64,000 nucleotides of DNA, taken from contig CACRXP010000725.1 of NCBI GenBank assembly GCA_902702965.1, positions 259,065 to 323,064 of the forward strand, written 5' to 3'. Source of the stretch: Spirometra erinaceieuropaei. Its lineage: Eukaryota; Platyhelminthes; Cestoda; Diphyllobothriidea; Diphyllobothriidae. Under the pieces are notes generated by a model. The model saw nothing but the letters and a program-made list of their open reading frames with translations, did no database searches and was not told the DNA's origin. The position numbers and the translations under genes were made by a program. This document shows positions 9,621-59,379 of this stretch, one piece after another; within the stretch, counting starts at the first letter, position 1; every line of letters starts with the position of its first letter.

Positions 9621-10388
9621 AAGAATCCCACCCGAAAGCCGGCATCCATGCGCAACTTAAATGTTTTGGGACTGTGCTACATGGTACTTCATATGACGGC
9701 GCTACTTAATTATTTTTTCCCGAATTTGACTTTACACGCGATAGCGCATCTACTGGATGTCGACCACTTGCGTCAATTCGTGAATATGGCAAACCCCTAG
9801 TTGTATTCGGTTATTTTAAAGCTAGAGACGATACAAAGCCCTAAGACAATTACTACACTGGTCCTTGCTGCTCATTCGCCGGAGTCGATTGCAGTCAATG
9901 CGCATGCGTCGTTTAGATAATGTGACCTGGCATTTATCTCTCTGCCCGCTGGTCACGCTCAAGTTCACGTTCTAATCAGGTGCTCCGTATTTTGCACTCT
10001 GGAAGCTGCGTACTTGCTGAAGATAGGCAGATTTTGGTTCTAGCTAAGTTAAAAAGTGTTGTTAAAATATTGGCGAAAGTCGCGATCCGAAGTATCTCTG
10101 ATTATGCAGTAAGTGCTGCATGACTGTTGTTATTGAAGACACTAAATACTACCAAATCCAACTCAACTTTACATCAATATTACCCACAGAAAGCAACTTA
10201 TTTTTTTCGTGCACCTTACGGAAGATGTAATCAGAGAAATAATGTATCACTGCTTAATAGGAAGGTGTATTCTAAGAAACGCACGACTTAACGATGAACT
10301 CTTTAATCTTCTTCTAAATTATTATAAACACATGTACAAACGTTTGTACAAAGCAACGCTTTGGGATTGGTAAAAATGTTTAATCAGT
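9621..10388. other. Spacer, nothing recognised
   Basis: AT-rich non-coding sequence; no repeat or gene is identified. Confidence 0.45.
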
Positions 10389-10390
10389 TA

Positions 10391-11385
10391 CAGTGAGTGA
10401 CCTATCTCATGAAATGTTGGCTGAAATTCTGAAATGCGTTTTCGATTAGGAAGGATTACTTGGTCGTGGTTGTAATACTAATTATCTTGCGGCATACTCT
10501 AATAACATTTCAGACTCAGCAGGATGTCGGCTTTTAAATGCACTTCTTTTCAATCTCCTGTAGAAAGCATGCTCGGTAAAAAATGACTACATAAGTAGCA
10601 TATATTTTTCCCATTGATTTTCGATAGTCCTGGAAATTCAAATATATTTTATGGAAACCATAAATAAAAATATGCTTTCTTTTAATCAATCAATAGAGAA
10701 TCACGTCTTCTTTATATTTTATACTTAAGGAAAGAGAATAATTAGGTTTTAAAAAAGTTTTCTAATTGCCGAATAATTTAGAGCCTCATCATTCGATACA
10801 TTAGCGCTTAGTGATTTCTCTCTACAAGGTGCGTGCGTTCCGCGTAAAGAAAATCACATATTTGTCTATGCCATTAAAGAGATATTATACAGAGTCCATA
10901 AAATTTTGCAATGGATGCGGACCATGTTGTACATTCCATGAGGAGCAGCGGTAAACGGACAGGTACGATGCTATGTGAATGGACATTTCGCGGTCTTAAA
11001 AAGTCTCATAATTAGAAACTTTTTCAAAACCTAATTATACTCCTTTCTTAAGTATAAAATATAAAGAAGACATGATTCTCTATAGATTGACTAAAAGAAA
11101 GCATATTTTTGTTTGTGGTTTCTAAAAAATATATTTGAATTTCCAAGACCATCGAAAATCAATGGAAAAAATGCATGCTATTTAAGTAGTCATTTTGTAC
11201 CGAGTACGCTTTCTACAGGAGATTGAAGGGAAAAGCATTTAAAAGCCGACATCCTGCCGTGTCCGAAATGTTATAAGAGTATGCCTTAAGATAATCAGTA
11301 TTACAACAGCGACCAAGTAACCCTTCCAAATCGAAAACGCATTTCAGAATTTCGGCCAACATTACATGAGATAGGTCACTCAGTG
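10391..11385 (+). mobile_element. palMITE copy 1: 995-bp palindromic MITE, TA-flanked
   Basis: The left end reads CAGTGAGTGACCTATCTCAT and the right end is its near-perfect inverse. TA lies directly outside both ends (10389-10390 and 11386-11387). The arms stay inverted repeats for roughly 385 bp each, and a non-palindromic centre of about 220 bp separates them. A TA duplication and CAGTG termini are the marks of Tc1/mariner-type DNA transposons, so this is probably a non-autonomous element of that superfamily. No transposase frame is present. A second copy at 51283-52277 has exactly the same length. Confidence 0.8.
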
Positions 11386-11387
11386 TA

Positions 11388-14027
11388 TCTGAGTTATGAA
11401 TCACAAATTTCAAAGGAATAATTGTGTTTTATGCGGATCAGTCCACATACAGTTTGTAACATATAAATGTCGAATGGTTTAGCGTGATAAATAAAAACAA
11501 ATTTCATTTCCCATATTTGTTACTTGCCCGTGTTCTTGTAAGGACCTGTATACTATGGCATTTATACAAATTACCAATAACGGCATTTTACGTTAACTGT
11601 CCTCCGCTTCAACTTAGGAATGAAGCAACGCATTTGCCTAAGGCAAATATCTGTTCTCTATAAAAAACCCAAAGTAAAGGATGTCTGCTTGGAAGGAAGT
11701 AAGAACTGAAAAAAACTTCGCTGAGCTAGACAGGCGGTAAGCAAACGGAAGGCAGTCAGATAGCAGCAGCCCGTCGTCATGGGATTTTTGTTCTCATTTA
11801 CGTCATCTATTATGATTCCTGTAGAGGGGTGCCAAAGTTCATATGGTCAAGGCTGTGATTCTTTGGCGTCGGATGCAAACACGGCATCCACAACAGCTTG
11901 CTAAAACTATGACACCTTTTGGTTACGCCTTATACTACAGTGGCGATATTAGTTATGCCAGTGAACGCGATAACTAATTCAGAGTTCCAAGTTCGGACCT
12001 GAATTATCGAATTTCTATATATATACCCCAGGGGTTTTCAAGACTTCCTAGTTCAGAACCAGCCTTTACAGCCTAAAGTAGTTGTAAGTCGATGTATATG
12101 ATTCCTTGAGACAGGGTTTTCTTACGGCTGTTTAATCACCTAACACACTGGCCTCTACACTGCTCGCCATAATTTATGTCCGTGCCTTCAAAAATGAAGC
12201 GGATCGGATGGTCGCGACACGTTTTTCTTCAGAAGTATTTGCGTCTACCGGCAACGGCTCGAAGGTCGGTTTAACTGATGCGAATGTCGACTGTATATCA
12301 TGGTGAACAACTAACTCATTAGTCCAACCAGTCCGTCATCGAAGCCAACTCATGACCCAAGAAAGTCATTAGGTCAAAAAACGATCAGATAATTGAGCCA
12401 ATGCGGAAATCAAATTATTAAAATTAGGATTACAATAATCAACAAGTGCGAAAGTAACTACATTCAGTTATTTTAAGGAGGTTCCGCGTACTACTCTTGT
12501 CGAAAGGAGTATTTAGTGAGGTGTGATACGTAAACGCCAATCTACATTAATTACAAAGCTCTAAAGGTTATTTCTGCTTTGGCCTATAGTCACGTTATTA
12601 TGGCATCCTATCATTCAAATCGTTTTTGAATCTTCCGATTAAAATACGAGATTGTGTCTAGGTACTCGTTTCATTTAAATCTTAGACTGCGGTATGATTG
12701 TTCAACCACGGTTCAGAAGTCAGAAATAACCATCACAGACCTCCTCATCATTGGCAGTATATATTTACCATTGTTTACTCTTATGACAGCAAGTGTTTGG
12801 CAGATTTGGGACCACTTGAGTCGTCAGTGGTCCTTCCTGTCCAGTTGCCGATGAAAAATATCTTAATGTTCAGCATTACCGAGCAATTTGTGCTACCTGC
12901 GTCTCGCATAAAATATAAACAACTAAATTAATTTCAGAACAAAGTTGATTGGAGCTACGTTTCCATTATATCATTCCCTTCGGTTGCAGTGTGTGGCCGA
13001 ACGCGAATATCTTAAAGAACTCTATCCTAACTATCAAAATGTCACGCGGCACCCATTTTGTCTGAATTTGATGTCCTACCTGGGTGCTGTTTTCAAACAC
13101 ATAATTTCATAAAATTTGCAGAGTTCCTTGATTTGGGTAATGCTTAGCAATTAACCTTGAGGCGCAGAGTGCGGTCTAAGGTAAATCAGACCACTAAACA
13201 TGAGGAAGACAATGCGATATGAAGTTCCCTACATTTTATCCAGTATTTGTCTTTACTAGCGAATATTTGGTGATTCAACATAATCAGCTATTATATGCGT
13301 TATTGGCTCGTTTGTTGCTCATGGGCGTGCGCGACATGTAGGCCCGACCGGAGACACAATTTCTGTCTTTTTATGGATCATAGCGGCAACTTGTCCGATT
13401 ATTATTCGCATTATAAGTCATTGTGCCTAAAAAGATCCCGTCCCTCCGTTGTGATTGCGCCTTGGACAGTTTAAAATACCGTGCTATGGCGATCAGAGCA
13501 CATATTCATCATACACTCCTATGTTTCCGATGGGATTACTGGTTTATTCATGAAGACAGTGATAATCAAATCGGATTATGATGTTTATATTGATGAATGT
13601 TATGTCAGAAGCATAATCCTGTCTGGTTAATTACTAAGTCGTGCAGAATACATTCATATTATTGGTGTTCATAGCACTCCTCAGCGTCACAGTACATCTT
13701 ACGAGATTCAGTCCAGTCACTCAAACAAAAGATAGACATATAATCCTGAGATTGGCCGTATTCGGCTCAAATGTTTAACTTCTTTTCCGTAGGCAAAATA
13801 AGGAGCTGCGAAGCTTGCACTATGAGCTGCCAGTTGGGTGTAGAAAGTGTCAACTGACTGGCTAAACGGATCCTGGATTCGTTTTATTTTTTTCTGCCTG
13901 GGTTATTACAGCGGGTATTCCTGGCTCCATTATTAGAGGACGAGGAAACAGTACATGCGCCGTGCGCGTAGACTACACCCGCGTTTCGATAGCCACTGCC
14001 TCCCCGATTATTTATAGTTATCTTTTG
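11388..14027. other. Long spacer, no gene recognised
   Basis: No family motif and no chain of splice-bounded frames was found. Short open frames near 12654-12931 overlap one another in two frames and look like chance. Confidence 0.45.
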
Positions 14028-30357: not shown

Positions 30358-30373
30358 GACAGTCACCGTTTCG
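30358..30373 (+). repeat. Left target-site duplication of PLE-C
   Basis: GACAGTCACCGTTTCG abuts the left arm. Its partner at 31508-31523 differs at one base. A match this long on both sides of the element is unlikely by chance. Confidence 0.6.
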
Positions 30374-30752
30374 AAGAAGAAGACAAGATCGCCGGGACAA
30401 GAGCTTTACTAGCTTGAAGTTTCGGATTCCTGCTCGAATCCATCATCAGAGACATAAGCAGATACGGGTGATTCATGCACATGCGGCTGCAGTATTTATA
30501 GGATGCAGTCGCCATGCTACCGTATACCTATGAATATTCACGGCTCCCTCCCCTTCATCAGGGATCGTTGCACGTGGCGTGATGGCCGATATTCGCGTCG
30601 TTAATTGCTGCAATTTAATCACGTGCGTTGGATGCTCGTGTGATGATTGCTCGGCCATCTCACGCGCTGACCTGGGTGTTTGGAAGAGTGTTCACCAGTG
30701 CGCTCTCCACGTGGCCAATTACTCCGCCTAGACGAAGTCTCAGCACGGTGCA

Positions 30753-31098
30753 TTAAATGGAAAGATCATTACACTTGTTAATAGACTGGGGACCAGTAAA
30801 CCATGACTCCAACAGCTCCCGGCTCACGCTGCTGTCATCTCTTAGGGGGAGTTCAGTCTCGTCAAATTTAAATGTGTGACCGGAACCCGTCGAATGAGCC
30901 GCAACTTGATAGCTGGCGTCATTTCTCCGCACCGCAGCAGCGTGTTCGGCCATTCGCGTTCGGAGTTGTCTTCCGGTTTCTCCGACGTAGTTGCTTTGTC
31001 TGCAACTGCACCAGATCCCATAAACGACTCCAGACGTTTCTCGCCGTGGCAGTGGGTCTTTCGGTTTCATCACCTGACGCCGGAGGCAACCATCGGGC
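30753..31098 (-). pseudogene. GIY-YIG endonuclease domain of PLE-C (truncated ORF)
   Basis: The frame opens in the body with VMKPKDPLPRRETSG, then VVY (the GIY position), C-x-C, NYVGETGRQL (YVG for YIG, and the conserved Arg), AEHAAAVRRND, HTFKFDETE, ELLESWFTG (the metal-ligand Glu) and SINKCNDL (the conserved Asn) before its stop. All the expected nuclease landmarks are present, so the domain itself looks little damaged. What is missing is everything upstream: reverse transcriptase and start codon. The upstream methionine near 31157 lies in the inverted arm and is not a native start. Confidence 0.75.
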
Positions 31099-31471
31099 GT
31101 GGTGAGACTTCGTCTAGGAGGAGTAATTGGCCACCCGGTGAGAGCACTGGTGAACACTTCCCAACACCCGGGTCAGCGCGTCAGATGTTCGAGCAATCAT
31201 CACACGAGCATCCAACGCACGTGATTAAATTGCAGCAATTAACGACGCGAATATCGGCCATTACGCCACGTGCAACGATCCCTGATGAAGGGGAGGGAGC
31301 CGTGAATATTCACAGGCATGCGGTAGCATGGCTACTGCATCCTATAAATACTGCAGCCGCATGTGCATGAACTACCCTTATCTGCTTATGTCTCTGATGA
31401 TGGATTCGAGCAGGAATCCGAAACTTCAGGCTAGTAAAGCTCTTGTCCCTACGATCGTGTCTTCTTCTTTA
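31098..31471 (+). repeat. Inverted 5' arm of PLE-C
   Basis: Reverse complement of 30374-30747 with scattered differences, including the terminal hairpin at 31394-31423. An open frame through it mirrors the one on the opposite strand of the left arm; neither is a gene. Confidence 0.8.
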
Positions 31472-31507
31472 AGACTGCTTCCTCGGATTGGTCTGTTCGC
31501 TTTTATT

Positions 31508-31523
31508 GACAGTCACCGTCTCG
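31508..31523 (+). repeat. Right target-site duplication of PLE-C
   Basis: GACAGTCACCGTCTCG, direct-repeat partner of 30358-30373 with a single T/C difference. Confidence 0.6.
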
Positions 31524-39366: not shown

Positions 39367-39479
39367 TAAGGATCATCCTTTATTGTTTTCCTAATGCATT
39401 CTCACAACATTTTGGAAGGCCTATATATAATCAAGGTAGAGTTCTGACAACCAAAAGGGAGGATAATTTCTGATTTTTG

Positions 39480-39600
39480 GCCGTCGTTAGCCGGCCCAAC
39501 CTACACCTATGATTAAAAGTCGCCTTCTTTGGTAATCGAACGCCACTGAGCCCAACGCGCTACCATTGAGCCAGGGTACCACAGCCATGTCCCCTGTGAT
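39480..39600 (-). mobile_element. Decayed SINE copy
   Basis: On the minus strand: 'ggctcaatggtagcgcg' (A-box region), a B-box-like 'gttcgattacc', and a body with 'cggctaacgacgg'. Same family as 40510 but diverged. Confidence 0.55.
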
Positions 39601-39661
39601 CGGGTATGTCAACTATCTTTGAAGGCGGTCATCGATAGGTTTATGCGATACCAGTATGATG

Positions 39662-39714
<53 letters not shown>
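39662..39714. repeat. (TA)n microsatellite, about 26 units
   Basis: Uninterrupted TA run; first of five TA tracts that separate the units of the 39.7-44.6 kb cluster. Confidence 0.98.
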
Positions 39715-39715
<1 letters not shown>

Positions 39716-40264
39716 CAGCGAGGAGGGACGACAGAGAATGCGGGTAGATTGATACAGCAATGTTTCTGGCTTATTCTGCCTTCATTCAGCCAATCATAAC
39801 CCTGACCACCAGCAGCTGAGACTAGAAACACAAACATGCGCACAGACGCACCTGGCGCAGTCAGTCCACCACTGAGGCCTACCAGATGGGTCATAAACAC
39901 TTCATCGAACCGAAGTTCATCAGTGCCTCGCCACCTGTCATTCTCTGTCGCTGCAGATCGGGTATTTATCAATCAGGAATTGGCGCACACCGATCTATTG
40001 GCTTCACAAAGCAAACAAGCTCCGTATGTGTGGCAAAGGTCACGAACAGGCAACCAATTACCAGGCCGAAGTCGGCCAAGTCATAATAGCAGCGAGGAGG
40101 GACGACAGAGAATGCGGGTATATTGATACAGCACTGTTTCGGGCTGCTATTATGACTTGGCCGACTTCGGCCTGGTAATTGGTTGCCTGTTCGTGACCTT
40201 TGCCACACATACGGAGCTTGTTTGCTTTGTGAAGCCAATAGATCGGTGTGCGCCCATTCCTGAT
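39715..40264. repeat. Repeat X with a 121-bp palindrome
   Basis: 39972-40092 and 40144-40264 are inverted copies, essentially identical apart from about one base, around a 51-bp spacer. The spacer sequence ('gcgaggagggacgacagaga') also occurs directly after the TA tract at 39717. Other copies of repeat X lie at 60215-60288 (inverted), 62350-62440 and 62815-62985. The open frames on both strands result from the palindrome. Function and class are unknown. Confidence 0.75.
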
Positions 40265-40266
40265 GA

Positions 40267-40282
40267 ATATATATATATATAT
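40267..40282. repeat. (AT)8 tract
   Basis: Separates the repeat X palindrome from the SINE pair. Confidence 0.95.
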
Positions 40283-40509
40283 GAGATGATACCGACAAAG
40301 ACAAGGGAGACCGGAATGGCCATTTCTGGCTTATTAGCCGTCATCAGCCAGTCATACCCAACCCCAAGTGTGGATCACTTGAGATTCGAACCCGGGATCT
40401 TTGGTCATGGAGTTGAACGCTCTACCATTGAGCCACGGGCCCGTTGTCCTGTCGGTTGTGATCGGGAATATTAATTATGACAGTGGGCGCTCGCCGATCA
40501 GGTTACGGA
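40283..40509 (-). mobile_element. SINE, minus-strand member of a head-to-head pair
   Basis: Reverse complement of the plus copy beginning at 40510: body marker 'ggcttattagccgtcatcag', B box 'gattcgaacccgg' and A box 'ctaccattgagccacgg'. Upstream of its tRNA-like head (to the right in plus coordinates) lies a further family segment, with 'gggaatattaattatgacag' and the 34-bp inverted-repeat element. The same upstream segment occurs beside the SINE at 54700-54960, so it belongs to the family. Confidence 0.85.
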
Positions 40510-40787
40510 CAACGGGCCCGTGGCTCAATGGTAGAGCGTTCAACTCCATGACCAAAGATCCCGGGTTCGAATCTCAAGTGATCCACACTTGGGGTTGGGT
40601 ATGACTGGCTGATGACGGCTAATAAGCCAGAAATGGCCATTCCGGTCTCCCTTGCCTTGTCGGTATCATCTCATCTATGTCTACCACTAGTCGCTGTGCG
40701 ACTGCCTGCGAGGGTTTAAGTATGAGCCCCAAGGCACAACGGAACGAGCATGTTCCGTAACCTGATCGGCGAGCGCCCACTGTCATA
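40510..40787 (+). mobile_element. SINE, plus-strand member, intact pol III boxes
   Basis: The tRNA-like head has A box TGGCTCAATGG and B box GGTTCGAATC, then the body ('gacggctaataagccagaaa', 'ccggtctcccttgcc') and a tail with 'ctaccactagtcgctgtgcg'. It ends with a 34-bp sequence (40754-40787) that is the perfect inverse of 40476-40509, so the unit 40476-40787 has 34-bp terminal inverted repeats (TATGACAGTGGGCGCTCGCC...). The best-preserved SINE in the window and the likeliest to be transcribed by pol III. Confidence 0.88.
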
Positions 40788-40804
40788 ATATATATATATA
40801 TATA
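40788..40804. repeat. (AT)n tract left of PLE-B
   Basis: Directly adjoins the inverted left arm of PLE-B. Confidence 0.95.
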
Positions 40805-41138
40805 TTGAAATCAAAAACGTTCTTTGGCAAAGGGAGAAAACTTTATTGAGTAAATTTTCGACGTCGGTTCCCCGTGTCGTCGTCAGACTAGAGTAAATGT
40901 GCTGAAAACAATTAAAATTTCAAACGTGCTACAAAATCAATACTCATTTGGTGCCTCAGCTAGTAAGCTGCCGTCGTATGTGTCAGTCCGTATTGATCGG
41001 CTTTCGTCTCTTCCACTTTTCTCTGAGATTCTTGTACGTGGCATCTAACTCGATATGCCTGTTGATGCATGACTCATCGGAGTGCATGGCTTCAAGAAAC
41101 CCTCGGCCTTTTTTAGATGGGCAAACTCCGACGATGCG
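40805..41138 (-). repeat. Inverted 5' arm of PLE-B
   Basis: Inverse of 41388-41721; the junction with forward sequence follows 'ctccgacgatgcg'. Contains a reverse copy of the GIY-YIG C-terminus and of the hairpin (40856-40886). Confidence 0.9.
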
Positions 41139-41543
41139 CACAAGCCGACGACTACGTTACGCACCCAGCCTGTACACCCTAAGGATAGGGTTGGCTATCT
41201 CGATAAAAAAAAAGTCGTCTATAAGATCCCATGCGATGCCTGTGATGCCGTATATTGTGGCCGAACGGGAAAATCTGCCTCTACACGCATCCACGAACAT
41301 CAACTTGCAGTTAAGAGGCGAGACAACTTGTCTCAAATGGCCATGCACACTCTTGATACTGGGCACAATTTCGCATGGGACAAAACTCGCATCGTCGGAG
41401 TTTGCCCATCTAAAAAAGGCCGAGAGTTTCTTGAAGCCATGCACTCCGATGAGTCATGCATCAACAGGCATATCGAGTTAGATGCCACGTACAAGAATCT
41501 CAGAGAAAAGTGGAAGAGACGAAAGCCGATCAATACGGACTGA
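41139..41543 (+). CDS. GIY-YIG endonuclease ORF of PLE-B (5'-truncated)
   Basis: The frame contains KPTTTLR, VVYKIPCDAC (VVY at the GIY position, with a Cys pair), VYCGRTGKSASTRIHEH (YCG for YIG; conserved Arg and His), HNFAWDKTRIVG, REFLEAMHSDE (Glu) and CINRHIELDATYKNL (Asn), then a stop at 41543. These are the landmarks of the PLE nuclease, which nicks target DNA; the Ile-to-Cys change in YIG is unusual. The apparent start at 41082 lies in the inverted arm, so native coding begins about 41139. Without RT the copy is non-autonomous. Confidence 0.8.
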   Translation, partial: HKPTTTLRTQPVHPKDRVGYLDKKKVVYKIPCDACDAVYCGRTGKSASTRIHEHQLAVKRRDNLSQMAMHTLDTGHNFAWDKTRIVGVCPSKKGREFLEAMHSDESCINRHIELDATYKNLREKWKRRKPINTD

Positions 41544-41751
41544 CACATACGACGGCAGCTTACTAGCTGAGGCACCAAATGAGTATTGATTTTGTAGCAC
41601 GTTTGAAATTTTAATTGTTTTCAGCACATTTACTCTAGTCTGACGACGACATGGGGAACCGACGTCGAAAATTTACTCAATAAAGTTTTCTCCCTTTCCC
41701 AAAGAACGTTTTTGATTTCAACCTATATTTCTTGCGATGCCTGCGTTCCAA

Positions 41752-41754
<3 letters not shown>

Positions 41755-41786
<32 letters not shown>
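41755..41786. repeat. (AT)16 tract between PLE-B and PLE-A
   Basis: Shared flank of two elements; right flank of PLE-B after its tail and left flank of PLE-A. Confidence 0.97.
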
Positions 41787-41790
<4 letters not shown>

Positions 41791-42540
41791 AGAAAAGGCG
41801 ATCTCGGGAACCATAGTTTTACTTTCCTGACGTTTCAAAAGCATACAAGCTTCCATCGTCGGAGGTGAGTGTGGTATCGCGCCTCACAGTATTTATGGGT
41901 GGGTAACAGTCATGTCAAAACGGGTTTTCTTACATACGAAGTCAGGGCGGCAGGGGGGGGATGGGCCGGGGAGGGGAGTCCTAGAGCGTCTTTTCGCCGG
42001 ATGAGGGGGTGGTGGATCAGAATTAGTGGTCATCAGCCGCATGCACACGTGAACTGTGGCGGGCGGGGGGGAGGGAGGGAGGGTGACGGAATGTACTCAA
42101 TCTACATCGGAAGCCGGCGTTGAGACGTTGGTGGTCGTCGTTCGTACCTTCATTGACCGTAGCTGTCGTCCAAGCCTGGCAATCTTGTTTACGCCGCAAC
42201 GACTGTCCGTTTTCTCGTCCGCCGGACTAGTAGATGGACCGGCTGTGGTGAGGACTGCGCCTTCGTCGGAACCCGGTTGAGGGGTGGCTGGGTGTGTATC
42301 CGCCATGGGCTCGCTCATGTCTGGATTCATGTTTAGCCTGGGTGCACGTCTGCTCATTTGTTTACTGAGCTGCGCTCGAAGGGCTTGATAGGCAGCGGGA
42401 AGAGTCACACAGCGGTTGATGGAGGTTGTCCCCGTGTGCCAAGCCTCGATTGTTTCCCTGGCTATGCGATCGTTTCCCCGGCCCAGAATTTCGGCATGCT
42501 GAAAGGCGAACGTGTGTCCGGCATCGGCGCAGTGTTCGGC
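41787..42540 (-). repeat. Inverted 5' arm of PLE-A
   Basis: Inverse of 43757-44510. On its minus strand it still encodes the last ~103 residues of the PLE protein (stop near 42097) and the 3' UTR. Few differences: for example one base changes Leu to Pro in a short antisense frame. Confidence 0.92.
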
Positions 42541-44200
42541 AGCACCAAGGTTCTATGGACTACCAAAGGTACACAAAGCCGGGGTCCCCCTCCGGCCAAT
42601 CGTATCATTGCGCGGGGCACCTACATTCAACTTGGCCAAATGGCTGTTCCGAAACCTGAGGTCTCTCACCTCGGACGCGGGCACGACGGTCTGTTCAGCG
42701 ACTCAGTTCCTGGAGCGGATCAAAGGGATGAGACTTACCGAAGACGAGGTCATGGTGTCATTCGACGTCACCTCTCTTTTCACCTCGATCCCGCAAGACC
42801 TGGCAATCGAAACGGTCAGTGAGCTGCTCGAGAGTCAGTACGACGAGACGGACGTAACCGTAAAAAGGAGACATCTCGTCCAATTGTTGAGATTCTGCCT
42901 GAAGACGTACTTTACCTTTGAAGGCACGACCTACGAGCAGGTCAAGGGGACGCCAATGGGATCGCCTCTCTCGGGCTTCATCGCAGAGGCAGTTCTCCAA
43001 AAAGTAGAAACCCTCGTTTTCTCAACCTATAAGCCGAAATTTTGGGCTCGATATGTCGATGATACCTTCGTTATCATTAAGCGGCAAATGGTCAAGGAAT
43101 TCCATGATGTCCTGAACTCTGTTTTCCCTGACATCCAGTTCATAATGGAGGCGGAAGTCAACAATCAACTCCCGTTCCTGGACGTTCTCGTCCATCGAAA
43201 TCCCAATGGGCACCTTAAAACGACGGTATATAGGAAGGCCACTAATACGCGCCAAATCCTGAGCTTCCACAGTAAGCACCCGTTAGGCCACAAACGCAGT
43301 TGTGTGCGAACACTCTACAGAAGGGCAGAAACACACTGCAGCGAGCCGGACGACAGAAGGTCAGAACTACGCTACCTCCAGCGCCTCTTCATGGCCAACG
43401 GGTATCCTCGCAACTTCATCGAACGCGGTCGACAGGCCGGACCGAGCCGACGTTTGGTGACAGAACGACCAACAATATGGCGGGCGCTTCCATACATCGA
43501 CGGCGTTTCTGAGGCCGTCTCGCGTCTCTTAAGACCGCTGGGGATCGGCATCGCCCACCGACCGGAGTCAACAATTCGACATCTGGTCATGAGACCTAAG
43601 GCCCCTCTGCCACTAGGCGAAACCACGAACGTCATCTACCGGATCCGGTGTAACTCCTGCGAAGTCAACTACATTGGGGAAACCGGCAAACGGCTACAGA
43701 GCCGTGTTGGAGAACACATGAGGGCAGTACGGCGAATGGACCCTTTGTCTCTGGTGGCCGAACACTGCGCCGATGCCGAACACACGTTCGCCTTTCAGCA
43801 TGCCGAAATTCTGGGCCGGGGAAACGATCGCATAGCCAGAGAAACAATCGAGGCTTGGCACACGGGGACAACCTCCATCAACCGCTGTGTGACTCTTCCC
43901 GCTGCCTATCAAGCCCTTCGAGCACAGCTCAGTAAACAAATGAGCAGACGTGCACCCAGGCTAAACATGAATCCAGACATGAGCGAGCCCATGGCGGATA
44001 CACACCCAGCCACCCCTCAACCGGGTTCCGACGAAGGCGCAGTCCTCACCACAGCCGGTCCATCTACTAGTCCGGCGGACGAGAAAACGGACAGTCGTTG
44101 CGGCGTAAACAAGATTGCCAGGCTTGGACGACAGCTACGGTCAATGAAGGTACGAACGACGACCACCAACGTCTCAACGCCGGCTTCCGATGTAGATTGA
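42512..44200 (+). CDS. PLE-A polyprotein: reverse transcriptase + GIY-YIG endonuclease
   Basis: 562 codons. The first ten residues come from the inverted arm; PLE sequence starts at about residue 11. Landmarks: FYGLPKVHKAGVPLRPI (14-30), NLAKWLF (40-46), MVSFDVTSLFTSIP (81-94, first catalytic Asp), GTPMGSPLSG (146-155), RYVDDTFVI (180-188, catalytic YVDD), NNQLPFLDVLVHRN (217-230), connector CVRTLYRR (264-271) and GYPRNF (297-302). Then the nuclease: VIY (374-376), C380 and C383, NYIGETGKRL (386-395), Arg398, Glu401-His402, Glu447 and Asn457. A Pro/Ser/Thr-rich tail follows to the stop. All core catalytic residues seen are intact. The protein should bind its RNA, nick DNA and prime cDNA at the nick, but it lacks the N-terminal ADKGG-type region found at 61486, so activity is doubtful. 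Confidence 0.9.
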   Translation: MCPASAQCSAAPRFYGLPKVHKAGVPLRPIVSLRGAPTFNLAKWLFRNLRSLTSDAGTTVCSATQFLERIKGMRLTEDEVMVSFDVTSLFTSIPQDLAIETVSELLESQYDETDVTVKRRHLVQLLRFCLKTYFTFEGTTYEQVKGTPMGSPLSGFIAEAVLQKVETLVFSTYKPKFWARYVDDTFVIIKRQMVKEFHDVLNSVFPDIQFIMEAEVNNQLPFLDVLVHRNPNGHLKTTVYRKATNTRQILSFHSKHPLGHKRSCVRTLYRRAETHCSEPDDRRSELRYLQRLFMANGYPRNFIERGRQAGPSRRLVTERPTIWRALPYIDGVSEAVSRLLRPLGIGIAHRPESTIRHLVMRPKAPLPLGETTNVIYRIRCNSCEVNYIGETGKRLQSRVGEHMRAVRRMDPLSLVAEHCADAEHTFAFQHAEILGRGNDRIARETIEAWHTGTTSINRCVTLPAAYQALRAQLSKQMSRRAPRLNMNPDMSEPMADTHPATPQPGSDEGAVLTTAGPSTSPADEKTDSRCGVNKIARLGRQLRSMKVRTTTTNVSTPASDVD

Positions 44201-44510
44201 GTACATTCCGTCACCCTCCCTCCCTCCCCCCCGCCCGCCACAGTTCACGTGTGCATGCGGCTGATGACCACTAATTCTGATCCACCACCCCCTCATCCGG
44301 CGAAAAGACGCTCTAGGACTCCCCTCCCCGGCCCATCCCCCCCCTGCCGCCCTGACTTCGTATGTAAGAAAACCCGTTTTGACATGACTGTTACCCACCC
44401 ATAAATACTGTGAGGCGCGATACCACACTCACCTCCGACGATGGAAGCTTGTATGCTTTTGAAACGTCAGGACAGTAAAACTATGGTTCCCGAGATCGCC
44501 TTTTCTTCTC
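43757..44510 (+). repeat. 3' arm of PLE-A (nuclease end, UTR, terminal hairpin)
   Basis: Forward partner of the arm at 41787-42540. 44201-44510 is non-coding, with C-rich runs near 44215-44240 and 44330-44350, a CCATAAATAC word at 44398-44407, and the CCGACGA...GAAAC hairpin at 44432-44472. Confidence 0.9.
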
Positions 44511-44549
44511 AATTATGTCCGGGGACGCGCATCTTCGCTTCTGTTAGCA

Positions 44550-44577
<28 letters not shown>
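44550..44577. repeat. (AT)14 tract right of PLE-A
   Basis: Follows the 39-bp tail of PLE-A; with 41755-41786 it brackets the element. Confidence 0.97.
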
Positions 44578-44581
<4 letters not shown>

Positions 44582-44589
44582 GGATCCGG

Positions 44590-44720
44590 ATTGCCGAAAA
44601 TGACATGGGTTATTTGAATAGCCATTTAGGGCTTTCTTACCGCCGTTAGCCAGTCGTTTCCACCCCCTGAGACACGAACAGCTTTTCAGTTGGTTAGAAG
44701 TCCAGCGGATTAATCATAAA
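44590..44720 (-). mobile_element. Decayed SINE body
   Basis: 'catttagggctttcttaccg' and 'ccgttagccagtcgtttcc' correspond to the family body in minus orientation; the tRNA-like end is no longer clear. Confidence 0.45.
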
Positions 44721-44759
44721 GCCGCGGCGAGATCGGTGCGCGTCCCTTTATCACTGGCT

Positions 44760-45649
44760 GCTCTTGGGACTAGGATTATCCTATGCTGTGGATGAGATTT
44801 AGGGTGGAGGCTTGGATTTGGGTTTTAGAGCCTGGATTAAGGTAACAGTTTCGTCCGAGGTTTTCTCAAATGCTTACGGATTGGACATTTCCGATTGCAG
44901 ACATGGGCATGATTGGAGTTAGGTCTCCCCAAAGGTAATACCTACCAAACCCTTGCTGACTGGGAAACGAGTGCCAAGAGTTCTGTACAAATGTAGCAAA
45001 CGCCCACTAATTTAACATCGATCAGCATGGCTACCTGGCTAGCGGATTATTGGTCAGTATTAAAATCGCTATTATGAATCACGTGTTGGTGTAACGAAAC
45101 AACAAGCATGCACCCAAACGAAAACCACGCACAGCTGCGATCATTCTGTAGTGCAGGCGAACTTTTAAGTGGAACGCAGACATATCTACTGAATGCGGAT
45201 GTAGGTTCTTTCACCTACAGGAGGCTCCGTCCGTCCTTATCGTAGTCCGCCACCCTCGCAGCGAGGTACAGGTCATGCCCGTGGCACGCGCAGACAGGTT
45301 ACTTAGCTTTGTCGACCAATGCGCCTTGCAAGTTGTACAAAGTGGGCGGGAATATGGAGTTTTAGGTGAACACTGTGAACTTCTGTCTGGAGTAAAACGA
45401 GTTCATGCACAAACCACTAACCTCGCATCAACTAGTGACGCAAGAGCAAACATCGCTCATTTCGGTGCTTAAACCAGCCAAATGAGGGTTCGAAATATCT
45501 AAGACTTTGTGAGATAGCTGCGGGCCAAAACCAGTGGAAGGAACGTACCACCAATTGTTTCTTTTTTTCCTGAATCTGAGATCATGAGTCCTAACGAGCA
45601 GTAGGAGCCAAAAAGTGTGCAGTACTGATGAGGAGGAGAATAACAGCTA
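44760..45649. other. Spacer with GGTTTTAGAG/TTAGG-type words
   Basis: 44800-44945 shares 'ggatta.ggtaac.gttt' with 32652. A 65-codon frame at 45275-45472 (PVARADRLLSFVDQCAL) has a protein-like look but no clear splice pair, so I leave it unassigned. Confidence 0.3.
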
Positions 45650-49052: not shown

Positions 49053-51280
49053 TGCCAACTGGCATATTCGGTTTGCCAGAGATTGCAAATGATGATAACT
49101 TGGCGTTAAACCGATTGCCCATCGGTTTAAATCCAAACACCCCTAAGTATAACAATGCATTTTACGAGGGCTTATTTTCTACAGAGGCACAGGGAGAGAG
49201 GGTTTTTGCCCGATGTTTTGAAAAATACATTAACTCATTCTGTCGTGATTTCATCTAATGCGGTGTATGCAACCGACCGCGGAAGGACTGATTAGAATGA
49301 CAGCTGTCGAAGAGACAGGCAGTATTTTGGTATCACAACTTGTTCGTTGACAGTGCACAGGCTACCTATTCGATTCCCAATTACCAGTTGGGGATTTTGA
49401 TAAATGCTTCAGGATAACTCGGGCAAAACACTGGGTTCCCTGACCATCTATTGACCATTACGAACAATAGAAAGACGCCTCAACATGATCGAGTATGGAT
49501 GACCTCACTTTGTCGGTATTATTTAAGTAGATTGCGATGAAAATGATGTCAAGAGATGTGGCGCTCATCTTTAGATTGGTTTTCATATGAACAGTCCACT
49601 GTGTGTGTCCTTAGAAAACGGAGTTCCCTTTACTTTATCTCCGATACTTTTGCAATTGCAGTCACAGATTTTAGAAAGGCTGCAATAAAACATCACTGCG
49701 TACTCCCATTGTGAGGGAAAACAGCGTAACCCTTAAGTGTTTTGCATGGAAAACACGTGTTTTTCCGCAAAGAATGTGTTCCCAAGTGCTTTTTGACTCC
49801 AAGACATAGCCCTTGCTTGCACCGTTCTTATTGTATAAAAAGAACTTCCTCTGTATTTTATCTGGAACGCTACCAGCCCGCGTAACTGCCGTCGCAAAGG
49901 CGGCATGTCAACACTCATGCAACGCCCTTCTTGTGTCCGCCAGATGCATCAGGCCGGATGTGTTTATTGCCATTAACTTTTCCTAGGCAGACTGCGCTGG
50001 AATATGTTCTTCCTCCCTCTCTTGCTCTCCCGTTTAAGGAAGGCGTATGGGTTTTTTCGAGAGGAATAGTTGCAGGAATAATTCCGCACAGATGCTGTAT
50101 GCAATCACAGTGTGTTCACTGCATGTGCCCCATAGGCCAAGAAAGGTTTAAACTGTGTCATTTTCTCACTGCGTTGCTGAGAGCCAGGAGATCAACAAGA
50201 CGGAGAGGATTCAAGTTTACAGCCTAGCCTGTTTCTGCCTGTTCGCCTAGATACAGCCAAAAAATCATCCGTGTTCCGTTCATCGCGCAGATGGTCGTGT
50301 TCTGGATATAGAAGTTATTACTATTTCTAGACTGGTCACCGTTTTATGGGAATCCGCACAGGTTTGTAGAAAAAAAGGTTGACATTCTTTTCGATTTTTT
50401 ACTTCTAGTTGTTGTATTTCCAAGAATATTCCACAGGGCGTTGCCCTTCTCTAGTAAGCCAGGGCAGCACATTATATCACGCCTGTGTGGGCAGTTACGT
50501 GCAGTCCAATAAGAGCGTTGCAGACGCGAACAGAGAGAGTACAATCCGGAATTAATTTCAAATACGCCCCACACTTGACATGCTTTTTACTAAAGTCCCA
50601 GTTCTTAGTAAACGTTGCGAAAAAAATTACTATGCAAATTAAACTCATGTCAAACACGAGGGGATGTTTTGTCTCTTTCAACATGGCATTCAGGGGACCG
50701 ACTATTTATTTATTAGTTTGCTTTAATTTCCGGTCTTAATTTAATCATTTTTAGAATGTTTTATGAGCAGTTGTTTTCGGGTACTTTTAAGTAATATTGG
50801 TATTGTTCAATGGCTACAAATTAAAAATGAACTTACGTCCGACAAAATTTAACAATTCAGGACCATACTAAAAGACTGTTTTCATTTTTGCAACGGTGCC
50901 AAACTGCGTGTTTCGTGACTTTTTTAAATACAGCGCGTATATAAACAGCAATGTATACTGATGAGATCATGAAGGACTGTTCTAGGTTCGTTCTTCTGGC
51001 GGACGATGAATTATAAGTCAAAAATAGCCATGTGATCCTCTCTCTTATCTGGCAGTACTCATTTTTGAACGCTATCTGCAGTGTCACGTGCTTGCATTCA
51101 TGGCAAAAAGGAACGCGCATGTCCTATGGCCCGATCGGTTAATGCCAGTTACTCGTATGTCGTAATATACATGTGTATGTTGGGAAGGGTGTCTATCCAT
51201 TAGGAAACGGGATATGCTCGTTCCTTTGTGCCTTGGACTTAAGCACGAGTCATTGCAGACAGGCACTCAGCAACCACCAG
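49053..51280. other. Spacer, no gene recognised
   Basis: Several 60-100 codon frames occur, on both strands and overlapping. None carries a known motif. Confidence 0.4.
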
Positions 51281-51282
51281 TA

Positions 51283-52277
51283 CAGTGAGTGACCGATCTC
51301 ATGAAATGTTGGCTGAAATTCTGAAGTGCGTTTTTGATTAGGAAGGATTACTTGGTCGCGGTTGTGATACTGATTGTCATAAAGCACACTCTTAAAACAT
51401 TTCGGAATCGGTAGGATGTCGGCTTTTAAATGCACTTATTTTCAATCTCCCGTAGAAAGCCTGCTCGGTAAAAAATGACTACTTAATTAGCATGCATTTT
51501 TCCCATTGATTTTCGATGGTCTTGGAAATTCAAATATATTTTATAAAAACCATAAACAAAACTATGCTTTCTTTTAGTCAATCAATAGAAAATCACGTCT
51601 TATTTACATTTTATACTTAAGGAAGGAGTATAATTAGGTTTTAAAAAAGTTTTCTAATTGCCGAATGATTTGCAGCCTGATCATTCATGGCATTAGCGCT
51701 TAGTGATTTCACTCTACGAGGAGCATGCGTTCCGCGTAAAGAAAATCACATATTTTTCTATGCCGTTAAAGAGATATCATACAGTGTCTACAAACTTTTG
51801 CAATGGATGCGGGCCATGTTGTACATTTCGCAAGGAGCAGTGATAAACGGCCAGGTACGATGCTATGTGAATGGGCATTTCGCGGTCTTAAAAAGACTCA
51901 TAATTAGAAACTTTTTTAAAACCTAATTATACTCCTGTCTTAAGTATAAAATATGAAGAAGACGTGACTGTCTACTGATTGACTAAAAGAAGCTATATTT
52001 TTGGTTGTGGTTTCTATAAAATATATTCAAATTTCCAAGACTATCGAAAATCAATGTGAAAAATGCATGCTACTTAAGTAGTCATTATTTACCGAGCACG
52101 CTTTCTACAGGCGATTGAAAAGAAATGCAGTTAAAAGCCGACATCCTGCCAAGTCCGAAATGTCATAAGAGTACGCCACAAGATAAGCAGCATTACAACC
52201 GCGGACAAGTAATCCTTCCTAATCGAAAACGCATTTCAGAATTTCAGCCAACATTTCATGAGATAGGTCACTCACTG
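51283..52277 (+). mobile_element. palMITE copy 2: 995 bp, TA-flanked
   Basis: CAGTGAGTGACCGATCTCAT at the left and the inverse ending CACTCACTG at the right, with TA on both sides (51281-51282, 52278-52279). Same length, orientation and centre as the copy at 10391, from which it differs by scattered substitutions. No transposase. Confidence 0.85.
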
Positions 52278-52329
52278 TACATGCAGACGAACACCTTCTC
52301 CATAGTAATTGATAGTCTGGAGGCCGCAA

Positions 52330-58118: not shown

Positions 58119-58120
58119 TA

Positions 58121-59103
58121 CAGTGAGTGACCTATCTCATGAAGTGTTGGCTGAAATTCTGAAATGCGTTTTCGCTAAGAAGGATTACTTGGTCGCGGAT
58201 GTAGTACTGATTATCTTGAGGAATACTCTTATAAGATTTCGGACTTGGCAGGATGTCGGCTTTTGAATGCACTTCTTTTCAATCTCCTGTAGAAAGCGTG
58301 CTCGGTAAAAAATCACTGCTTACGTAGCATGCGTTTTGCCCATTGATTTTCGATGGTCTTGGAAATTCAAATATATTTTATAGAAACCACAATCAAAAAT
58401 ATAGTTTCTTTTAGTCAATGAATAGAAAGTCACGTCTTCTTTATATTTTATGCTTAAGACAGGAGTATAATTAGGTTGTAAAAAAGTTTCTAATTATGAG
58501 ACTTTTTAAGACCGCGATATGTCCATTCACATAGCATCGTACCTTGCCGTTTACCACTGCTCCTCTAGAAATGTACATCCGCATCCATCGCAACATTTAT
58601 GGACCCTGTATAATATCTCTTTAATGACATAGAAAAATATGGGATTTTCTTTACGCGGAACGCATGCACCTTGTAGAGTGAAATCACTAAGCGCTAAGGC
58701 AACGAACGATCAGGCTGCAGATCATTCGGCAATTAGAAAACTTTTTAAAACCTAATTATACTTCTTTCCTAAGTATAAAACATAAAGAAGACGTGATTTT
58801 CTATTGATTGATTAAAAGAAAGCATTTTTGTTTATGGTTTCTATAAAATATATTTGAATTTCCAAGACCATGGAAAATCAATGGGAGAAATTCATGCTAC
58901 TTAAGTAGTCATTTTTTACCGAGCAGGCTTTCTACAGGAGACTGAAAAGAAGTGCATTTAAAAGCCGACATCATGCCAAGTCCGAAATGTTAAAAGAGTA
59001 TGCCACAAGATAATCAATATCAAAACCGCGACCAAGTAATCCTTCTTAGCGAAAACGCATTTCAGAATTCCAGCCAACATTTCATGAGATAGGTCACTCA
59101 CTG
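58121..59103 (-). mobile_element. palMITE copy 3: 983 bp, centre reversed
   Basis: Termini CAGTGAGTGACCTATCTCAT and its inverse, with TA at the left (58119-58120) and TG at the right, probably a mutated TA. The non-palindromic centre reads in the opposite orientation to copies 1 and 2. Small indels account for the shorter length. Confidence 0.82.
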
Positions 59104-59379
59104 TGCTAAACCTAGTTGGGTTACACAACCTATCCTTATCTTCTTTTTCCTCAGCTGTCCACAGGCATTTCTCCTCGTCTAATCCTTGTCTTAGATACTC
59201 GGGTTTCCCACAGGTTCCATCTATCCATATTCGCAAATTTTAAACATAGGGACCTATATTACTATTGTGGATTTGAAGAATATATGGGAACTATTAGATC
59301 CCAACAACGTGCGTGTGCAAACAGAGTGTTCGTCGAATGTAAGTTTGTGAAATTGTGATCAGTATTGCAGACCTAGCAT

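Follow-up and report, generated by a model that had tools for sequence, protein, structure and literature searches.

How four inverted-repeat units of different families come to lie end to end, each separated from the next by a run of alternating T and A, is the question raised by positions 39,715-44,549 of the window, the whole 64,000-nucleotide stretch of the cestode Spirometra erinaceieuropaei analyzed here (GenBank assembly GCA_902702965.1, contig CACRXP010000725.1, positions 259,065 to 323,064 of the forward strand). From left to right the units are two small non-coding repeats, termed X and M, and two Penelope-like elements (PLEs), PLE-B and PLE-A. The explanation that best covers the whole is probably that every unit is a PLE-type insertion primed on both strands of its target, that M and X use the PLE enzyme in trans, and that such chains grow on TA tracts.

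The five TA tracts bounding the chain are the only ones of at least 12 bp in the window, and the inverted arms of the units are 97% alike in X (39963-40093/40143-40273) and 99% alike in M (40298-40449/40507-40658), PLE-B (40798-41138/41388-41728) and PLE-A (41781-42540/43757-44516). A preliminary description of the locus had called every unit an inverted repeat and every boundary a TA run; the arms and the tract scan of the window bear this out, and its unit coordinates agree with those in Table 1 within 1-3 bases. All four units are asymmetric: the right end of each has a stretch missing from the left, of about 38 nt (PLE-A), 33 nt (PLE-B) or roughly 110-125 nt (M and X).

Table 1. Coordinates of the chain and of PLE-C in the window (sites A and B are the two outer ends defined in the text)
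Feature	Position	Strand	Remarks
(TA)26 tract, left boundary of chain	39663..39714		Tract scan
X foldback	39715..40266		Long sense copy (-) against short sense copy (+); site A at 39715 (- copy), site B at about 40266 (+ copy); joint at about 40143-40158
X hammerhead-like fold, core	39768..39789	-	Predicted; CTGAATGA core with one extra A
TA tract, X site B to M site A	40267..40282		
M ("SINE pair") foldback	40283..40787		- copy 40283-40509 (site A outward), + copy 40507-40787 (site B outward)
M hammerhead-like fold	40597..40651	+	Predicted; - copy at 40305-40359
M tRNA-like stretch	40514..40569	+	Rfam tRNA 19.8 bits, gathering score 29; also 40387-40442 (-)
TA tract, M site B to PLE-B site A	40788..40805		
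PLE-B foldback	40806..41754		- arm, site A outward, 40806; + arm, site B outward, 41754
PLE-B tail	41721/41722-41754		Right end
PLE-B reading-frame fragment	41073..41540	+	Sub-threshold GIY-YIG match
PLE-B hammerhead-like core	41640..41671	+	Pattern match; - copy 40855-40886
TA tract, PLE-B site B to PLE-A site A	41755..41786		
PLE-A foldback	41787..44549		- arm, site A outward, 41787; + arm, site B outward, 44549
PLE-A tail	~44511-44549		Right end
PLE-A reading frame, 565 codons	42503..44197	+	RVT_1 and sub-threshold GIY-YIG match
PLE-A hammerhead-like core	44435..44465	+	ATG at 44441; - copy 41832-41862
(AT)14 tract, right boundary of chain	44550..44577		Tract scan
PLE-C foldback	30370..31507		Third PLE-like element in window, no TA site; ~38-nt tail, right end only
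PLE-C 12-bp target duplication	30358..30369 and 31508-31519		Left and right copy; word found only twice in window

PLE-A and PLE-B are PLEs. The reading frame of PLE-A matches a Sparganum proliferum protein at 96% identity (98% of its length covered) and a Spirometra erinaceieuropaei protein at 99% (60% covered), and combines the reverse transcriptase (RT) and GIY-YIG domains expected of a PLE; its RVT_1 match scores 33.9 bits (Pfam cut-off 29.6) and its GIY-YIG match 17.1 bits, under the cut-off of 22.6, as do those of close homologues. A sub-threshold GIY-YIG match is the only domain trace in PLE-B. Both elements, together with PLE-C, consist of opposed copies with a tail at the right end only (about 38, 33 and 38 nt in PLE-A, PLE-B and PLE-C, respectively), and all three carry hammerhead core-like motifs found by pattern, with a stem II in the predicted folds of PLE-A and PLE-C. 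From the start of the core to the tailed end, site B, there are 115 nt in PLE-A, 115 in PLE-B and 114 in PLE-C; the last, which has 12-bp direct repeats on both sides at a site free of TA tracts, served as an internal control. In having RT and GIY-YIG, an ATG inside the hammerhead-like core (PLE-A), opposed copies, a tail at one end, AT-rich targets and short target duplications, these elements resemble the Penelope/Poseidon PLEs (Penelope of D. virilis, Pen of A. vaga and PAc of Anolis), from which the Spirometra units differ by their strong use of (TA)n and their long mixed chains. Site B of PLE-A lies 109 nt from the core ATG, against cDNA starts 111-118 nt into the open reading frame of PAc (PMC11167929; statements on published systems, here and below, refer to parts of the papers cited).

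The small repeats have units of about 307 nt (M) and about 374 nt (X), and both also occur as tandem arrays. Across the 758.7-Mb genome there are at least 176 matches to M, many near full length and with arrays spaced about 308 nt, and at least 246 to X, with arrays of 374-nt period; these counts are lower bounds biased to close relatives, being drawn from the best 40 of 3143 (M) and of 2223 (X) candidates. Head-to-tail X arrays stand at L033-L036 (C144), L018 (C1172) and L026 (C206), some of them reaching assembly gaps. Adjacent X array units are up to 100% identical, as would be expected if a circular RNA were copied repeatedly round. Stems I-III of a type I hammerhead fold are widely kept among distinct copies picked by resemblance, each pair forming in 40-46 of 50 for M and 11-15 of 15 for X, and between M and X one position in stem I and two in stem III show paired changes; the basal pair of stem II, by contrast, forms in just 6/50 M and 2/15 X copies, and the X core holds one extra A. 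The tRNA-like stretch of M scores below the Rfam gathering threshold, ARAGORN found no tRNA, and most Rfam matches are microRNA models lying on the TA tracts.

Like metazoan retrozymes (Cervera and de la Peña 2020, PMC7229834), M and X are tandem repeats within the 170-400 nt range, have a predicted type I hammerhead-like fold and no notable coding frame, and share their genome with PLEs; unlike them, they have a GC content of 52.8% (M) and 52.1% (X) instead of less than 50%, a non-canonical core (X) and a non-canonical base pair in stem II (both). Opposed-arm insertions with two fixed ends are not among the retrozyme features described in the parts of that paper covered here. Because of the weak stem II pair, the extra A of X, the GC content of 52-53% and the outcome of the Rfam searches given below, we call M and X retrozyme-like, with predicted hammerhead-like folds. 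By description they can also be likened to the SMalpha SINE-like (short interspersed element) retroposons of schistosomes, which are flatworm repeats of similar size with a hammerhead (PMC8490949).

All four families have two fixed outer ends. When each small element is unrolled on its repeat unit, M consists of two sense copies head to head both in the window and at 20 further loci, with outer ends at M147-177 (site A, mostly 160-172) and M263-289 (site B), where BLAST alignments may extend a few bases into the TA tract; the outer ends of X lie at X71 (site A) or X194 (site B), and genome copies of every family likewise have two discrete outer ends. The right arms of M (40507-40787) and X (40143-40266) have a short word in common, GATCGGYGNGCGCCCA, immediately before site B; it may belong to a start signal. 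Pairs unite one A end with one B end in 18 of 21 cases for M, the others being one B/B pair and two with one odd end, and in 9 of 14 for X, where the remaining five have at least one end that falls at a gap, is cut off by the locus or is unclear; the query that retrieved these loci was itself A/B, which favors A/B pairs among them. PLE-B, whose copies were found by one arm, offers a fairer test: 17 of its 18 head-to-head pairs are resolved at both ends and all 17 are A/B, whereas its ends overall (27 A and 30 B, from 61 of 122 matches, the rest being mirror matches by the other query arm and the left arm of the window) predict about half by chance. Besides the window copy, PLE-A has four A/B pairs, one B/B pair and one unresolved pair. 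From the hammerhead-like core to site A there are 76-77 nt in PLE-A, 81-82 in PLE-B, 76-80 in PLE-C, 64-66 in M and 75-78 in X; to site B there are 179 nt in M and 197 nt in X.

Such ends have a counterpart in purified PAc protein (Frangieh et al. 2024), which cuts and extends its target on both strands, prefers AT-rich DNA and initiates cDNA at a pair of neighboring sites inside the RNA, which define the tail (PMC11167929), and in the build of Penelope itself, whose copies are inverted head to head and may bear a tail of about 31 nt on one end (PMC3846280). The four units of the chain would then be separate insertions by Penelope-type RT/GIY-YIG endonucleases that cut both strands of an AT-rich target, preferably (TA)n; each cut 3′ end would prime reverse transcription inside the template RNA, with site A as the start for one end and site B for the other, and the two converging cDNAs would be joined via short matching sequences. 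The product would be a pair of sense copies facing each other, one with its end at A and one with its end at B, flanked on either side by a copy of the target. M and X would take part as non-coding, tandemly repeated hammerhead-like RNAs using the PLE protein in trans, and mixed-family chains would grow because an element landing in a TA tract ends up with TA on both flanks, which creates new targets.

The joints and arms fit this course. The position of the central joint differs between loci, and overlaps of at least 3 nt are found in 13/21 M and 5/14 X pairs, against 4.9% of simulated random M joins. Human L1 twin priming also joins two cDNAs from the two cut strands by microhomology, and keeps one fixed 3′ end; the Spirometra units would share the first two traits and differ in that both their outer ends are fixed internal start sites. 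Within a locus the arms carry like variants: positions 40540 and 40541 each agree in 19 of 20 comparable loci, and M arms projected on one reference are on average 97.1% identical within a locus and 96.2% between loci, with none of 2000 permutations of the loci reaching the within-locus value (a simple multiple alignment is uninformative for this family, which is about 5% diverged). Since arms share the variants of their locus and joints vary, the foldback is, on this sequence evidence, formed anew at each insertion, and what had been described as a pair of SINE insertions is instead one insertion of two opposed copies. Copying of a ready-made palindrome was rejected on account of joints that differ from locus to locus; hammerhead cleavage was set aside as the source of the inner breakpoints, as inner ends vary and many arms cross the motif. 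Arms exceeding one unit and multi-unit arrays would call for a circular or multimeric RNA template.

The same arms bear on self-priming, in which a strand folds on itself and the second arm copies the first, a route that has been proposed for PLE palindromes, on an antisense template (PMC3846280). Pairs whose A arm lies wholly inside the span of the B arm (7/17 PLE-B, 2/4 PLE-A, 3/18 M and 2/9 X A/B pairs) agree with this published reading, but in the remainder (10/17, 2/4, 15/18 and 7/9, respectively) neither arm is contained in the other, which is impossible from one self-copied strand; moreover, self-priming leaves the presence of A at one end and B at the other unexplained. It is disfavored as a general route and an unlikely origin for these foldbacks.

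On this model, the TA tracts are the preferred targets. A TA run of at least 8 nt adjoins 32/45 outer ends of M, 29 of the 32 readable ends of X (34 ends, two of them at gaps), 12/20 of PLE-A and 16/20 of PLE-B, compared with 69 of 8393 sampled window positions (0.8%). A sample of X site-A words drawn regardless of flanks covers 40 of the first 42 entries among 845 exact words: 30 run on into the element, six end at TA and four were called other ends; with one of these four (L155, which continues 10 nt into the element) dropped, six of nine true ends are at TA. The genome survey of TA flanks that the preliminary description had proposed thus finds the four families alike in their ends, orientation and target, in support of its claim of target-primed PLE insertion into TA repeats. 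It had also held that copies of M or X lacking TA flanks would count against its reading; such copies exist at five M loci and one X locus, and are not taken as a refutation here, as most share flank words. Seven TA-less loci readable on both sides (five M, one X and one PLE-B) were compared with random positions, and in five of them a word of 7-12 nt is common to both flanks, three beating 95% of the random controls: AATTACTACTTT at L044, ATTTAATTATTT at the PLE-B locus L063 and ATATTTGAAT at L051, of lengths reached by 2%, 1.7% and 4% of random trials, respectively, followed by TCAATTT at L047 (9%) and AGCACTT, with filler, at L045 (15%). Target duplications at TA-less loci are accordingly three clear, two weak and two absent. 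A further M locus, L050, is without a TA run at its readable end and reaches a gap on the other side. TA is the favored target, and neither a requirement nor part of the element.

These observations also weigh on the idea that the elements make the TA tracts themselves, by slippage or untemplated end addition, rather than landing in them. In its favor, both outer ends would be cDNA starts, and most bear TA; but TA-less copies (5/21 M loci, one X locus, L063 among PLE-B and PLE-C with its 12-bp duplication) speak against it, and among nine TA tracts of at least 24 nt taken in contig order an element end is recognized, by eye, at just three, one adjoining site B of PLE-B and two a single further repeat that, judged by eye, may represent another PLE family; the TA tracts at L073, L078 and L021 likewise stand beside ends of one such repeat. 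Element-made tracts are improbable.

With tracts as targets of a PLE-type enzyme, these common insertion marks suggest that M and X depend on the Penelope enzyme for their movement: we infer use in trans by a PLE-type enzyme because M and X share with the PLEs their anatomy, their target and a similar spacing from core to site A. The earlier suggestion that the same machinery may have mobilized M and X in trans holds as far as one kind of machinery for the four units is concerned, the trans part being drawn from these shared marks. M and X might alternatively be moved by a long interspersed element (LINE) of the RTE or CR1 type, with an AT-rich target preference the only trait shared with PLEs. 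SINEs usually rely on LINEs, but LINE insertions retain one fixed 3′ end, whereas M and X have two fixed ends on opposed arms, like PLE-A, PLE-B and PLE-C. Even though RTE-BovB and CR1 each account for about 9-11% of the published assembly of the species (PMC8166898), transport by a LINE is no likelier than element-made tracts.

The chain in the window is a typical specimen. Among 100 TA tracts of at least 10 nt, from the window and 45 loci chosen for holding a family, 23 carry a recognized family end on both sides (M-X 10, M-PLE-B 4, M-M 3, PLE-A-PLE-B 2, M-PLE-A 2, PLE-A-X 1 and PLE-B-X 1), an observed count given without a shuffled control. Of 28 PLE ends with TA, 19 face a further PLE or retrozyme-like piece on the far side of the tract (three of these weak, E 0.002-0.008), compared with 1 of 12 PLE ends lacking TA and 17 of 400 segments drawn at random from the window; at L114, what faces a PLE-B end over the TA tract resembles, by eye, the 5′ end of a small-subunit rRNA gene. 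Other contigs have mixed chains in different orders (L055, L060, L062 and C134), with the usual ends and a joint of its own for each unit, the order at L060 being X, TA, PLE-A, TA, PLE-B, TA. That the chain is an assembly error or a product of recombination between TA tracts is highly improbable, for although palindromes and TA tracts challenge assembly and gaps occur in X arrays, 39,400-44,900 is free of any N and mixed chains recur on these other contigs.

Several observations nevertheless count against PLE-type insertion with trans use of the enzyme. The case for trans use is built from shared sequence marks, not from direct transposition or protein-RNA contact. Sites A and B are about 33-38 nt apart in the PLEs but some 110-125 nt apart in the two small repeats, so that site B is placed differently, and no sequence common to PLEs and M/X was found at the start sites. 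The pairing rule has exceptions (M loci L058, B/B, and L050 and L054, with one odd end each; PLE-A pair C430, B/B), and at X locus L012 the end on the B side falls at X178 and lacks TA. At L044, L045, L047, L051 and L057 of the 21 M loci and at X locus L014, a TA run is present at neither end; for L057 (6 nt, reached by 38% of random trials) and L014 (5 nt, 74%), a target duplication does not rise above chance. The core of PLE-A reads CCGACGA where a hammerhead is expected to have CTGANGA, and no hammerhead appeared among the Rfam results, either at gathering thresholds in the window or at E up to 10 in 39.6-44.65 kb. Finally, X arrays contain assembly gaps.

Elsewhere in the window, three foldback repeats that are related to one another and about 1 kb long (10384-11392, 51280-52280 and 58120-59104) have CAGTGAGTGACC ends that mostly adjoin TA; they look like a DNA-transposon-derived palindrome, unlike the PLE-type units.

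Foldbacks, tails, AT-rich targets and trans-mobilization of a host gene have been published for PLEs (PMC3846280), and PLEs have been suggested as a strong candidate for the mover of animal retrozymes (PMC7229834), whose repeats, according to a review, contain no conserved motif betraying an autonomous partner (PMC7761336). No statement of a strict one-A-one-B rule was found for Penelope/Poseidon PLEs in the parts of the papers covered here, and no report of PLE-type ends or foldbacks in retrozymes among the titles and abstracts retrieved by searches of open-licence papers. A bolder version of the proposal, in which M and X are parasites of PLEs with a PLE start layout (hammerhead, about 64-82 nt, site A), sites A and B divide the labor so that each foldback has exactly one tailed end, and the TA tract is a self-amplifying relay that stacks unrelated families, has in our view about an even chance of being right. 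As a clue to the mover of animal retrozymes, two fixed ends, the one-A-one-B rule and the hammerhead-site A spacing provide a mark that can be searched in any genome. Together with the non-nested arms, the pairing rule also limits the possible mechanisms of PLEs themselves, agreeing better with priming on both strands, as by PAc in vitro, than with self-priming. If the proposal is true, each insertion into TA would turn one landing pad into two, making the TA tract a relay for unrelated families.

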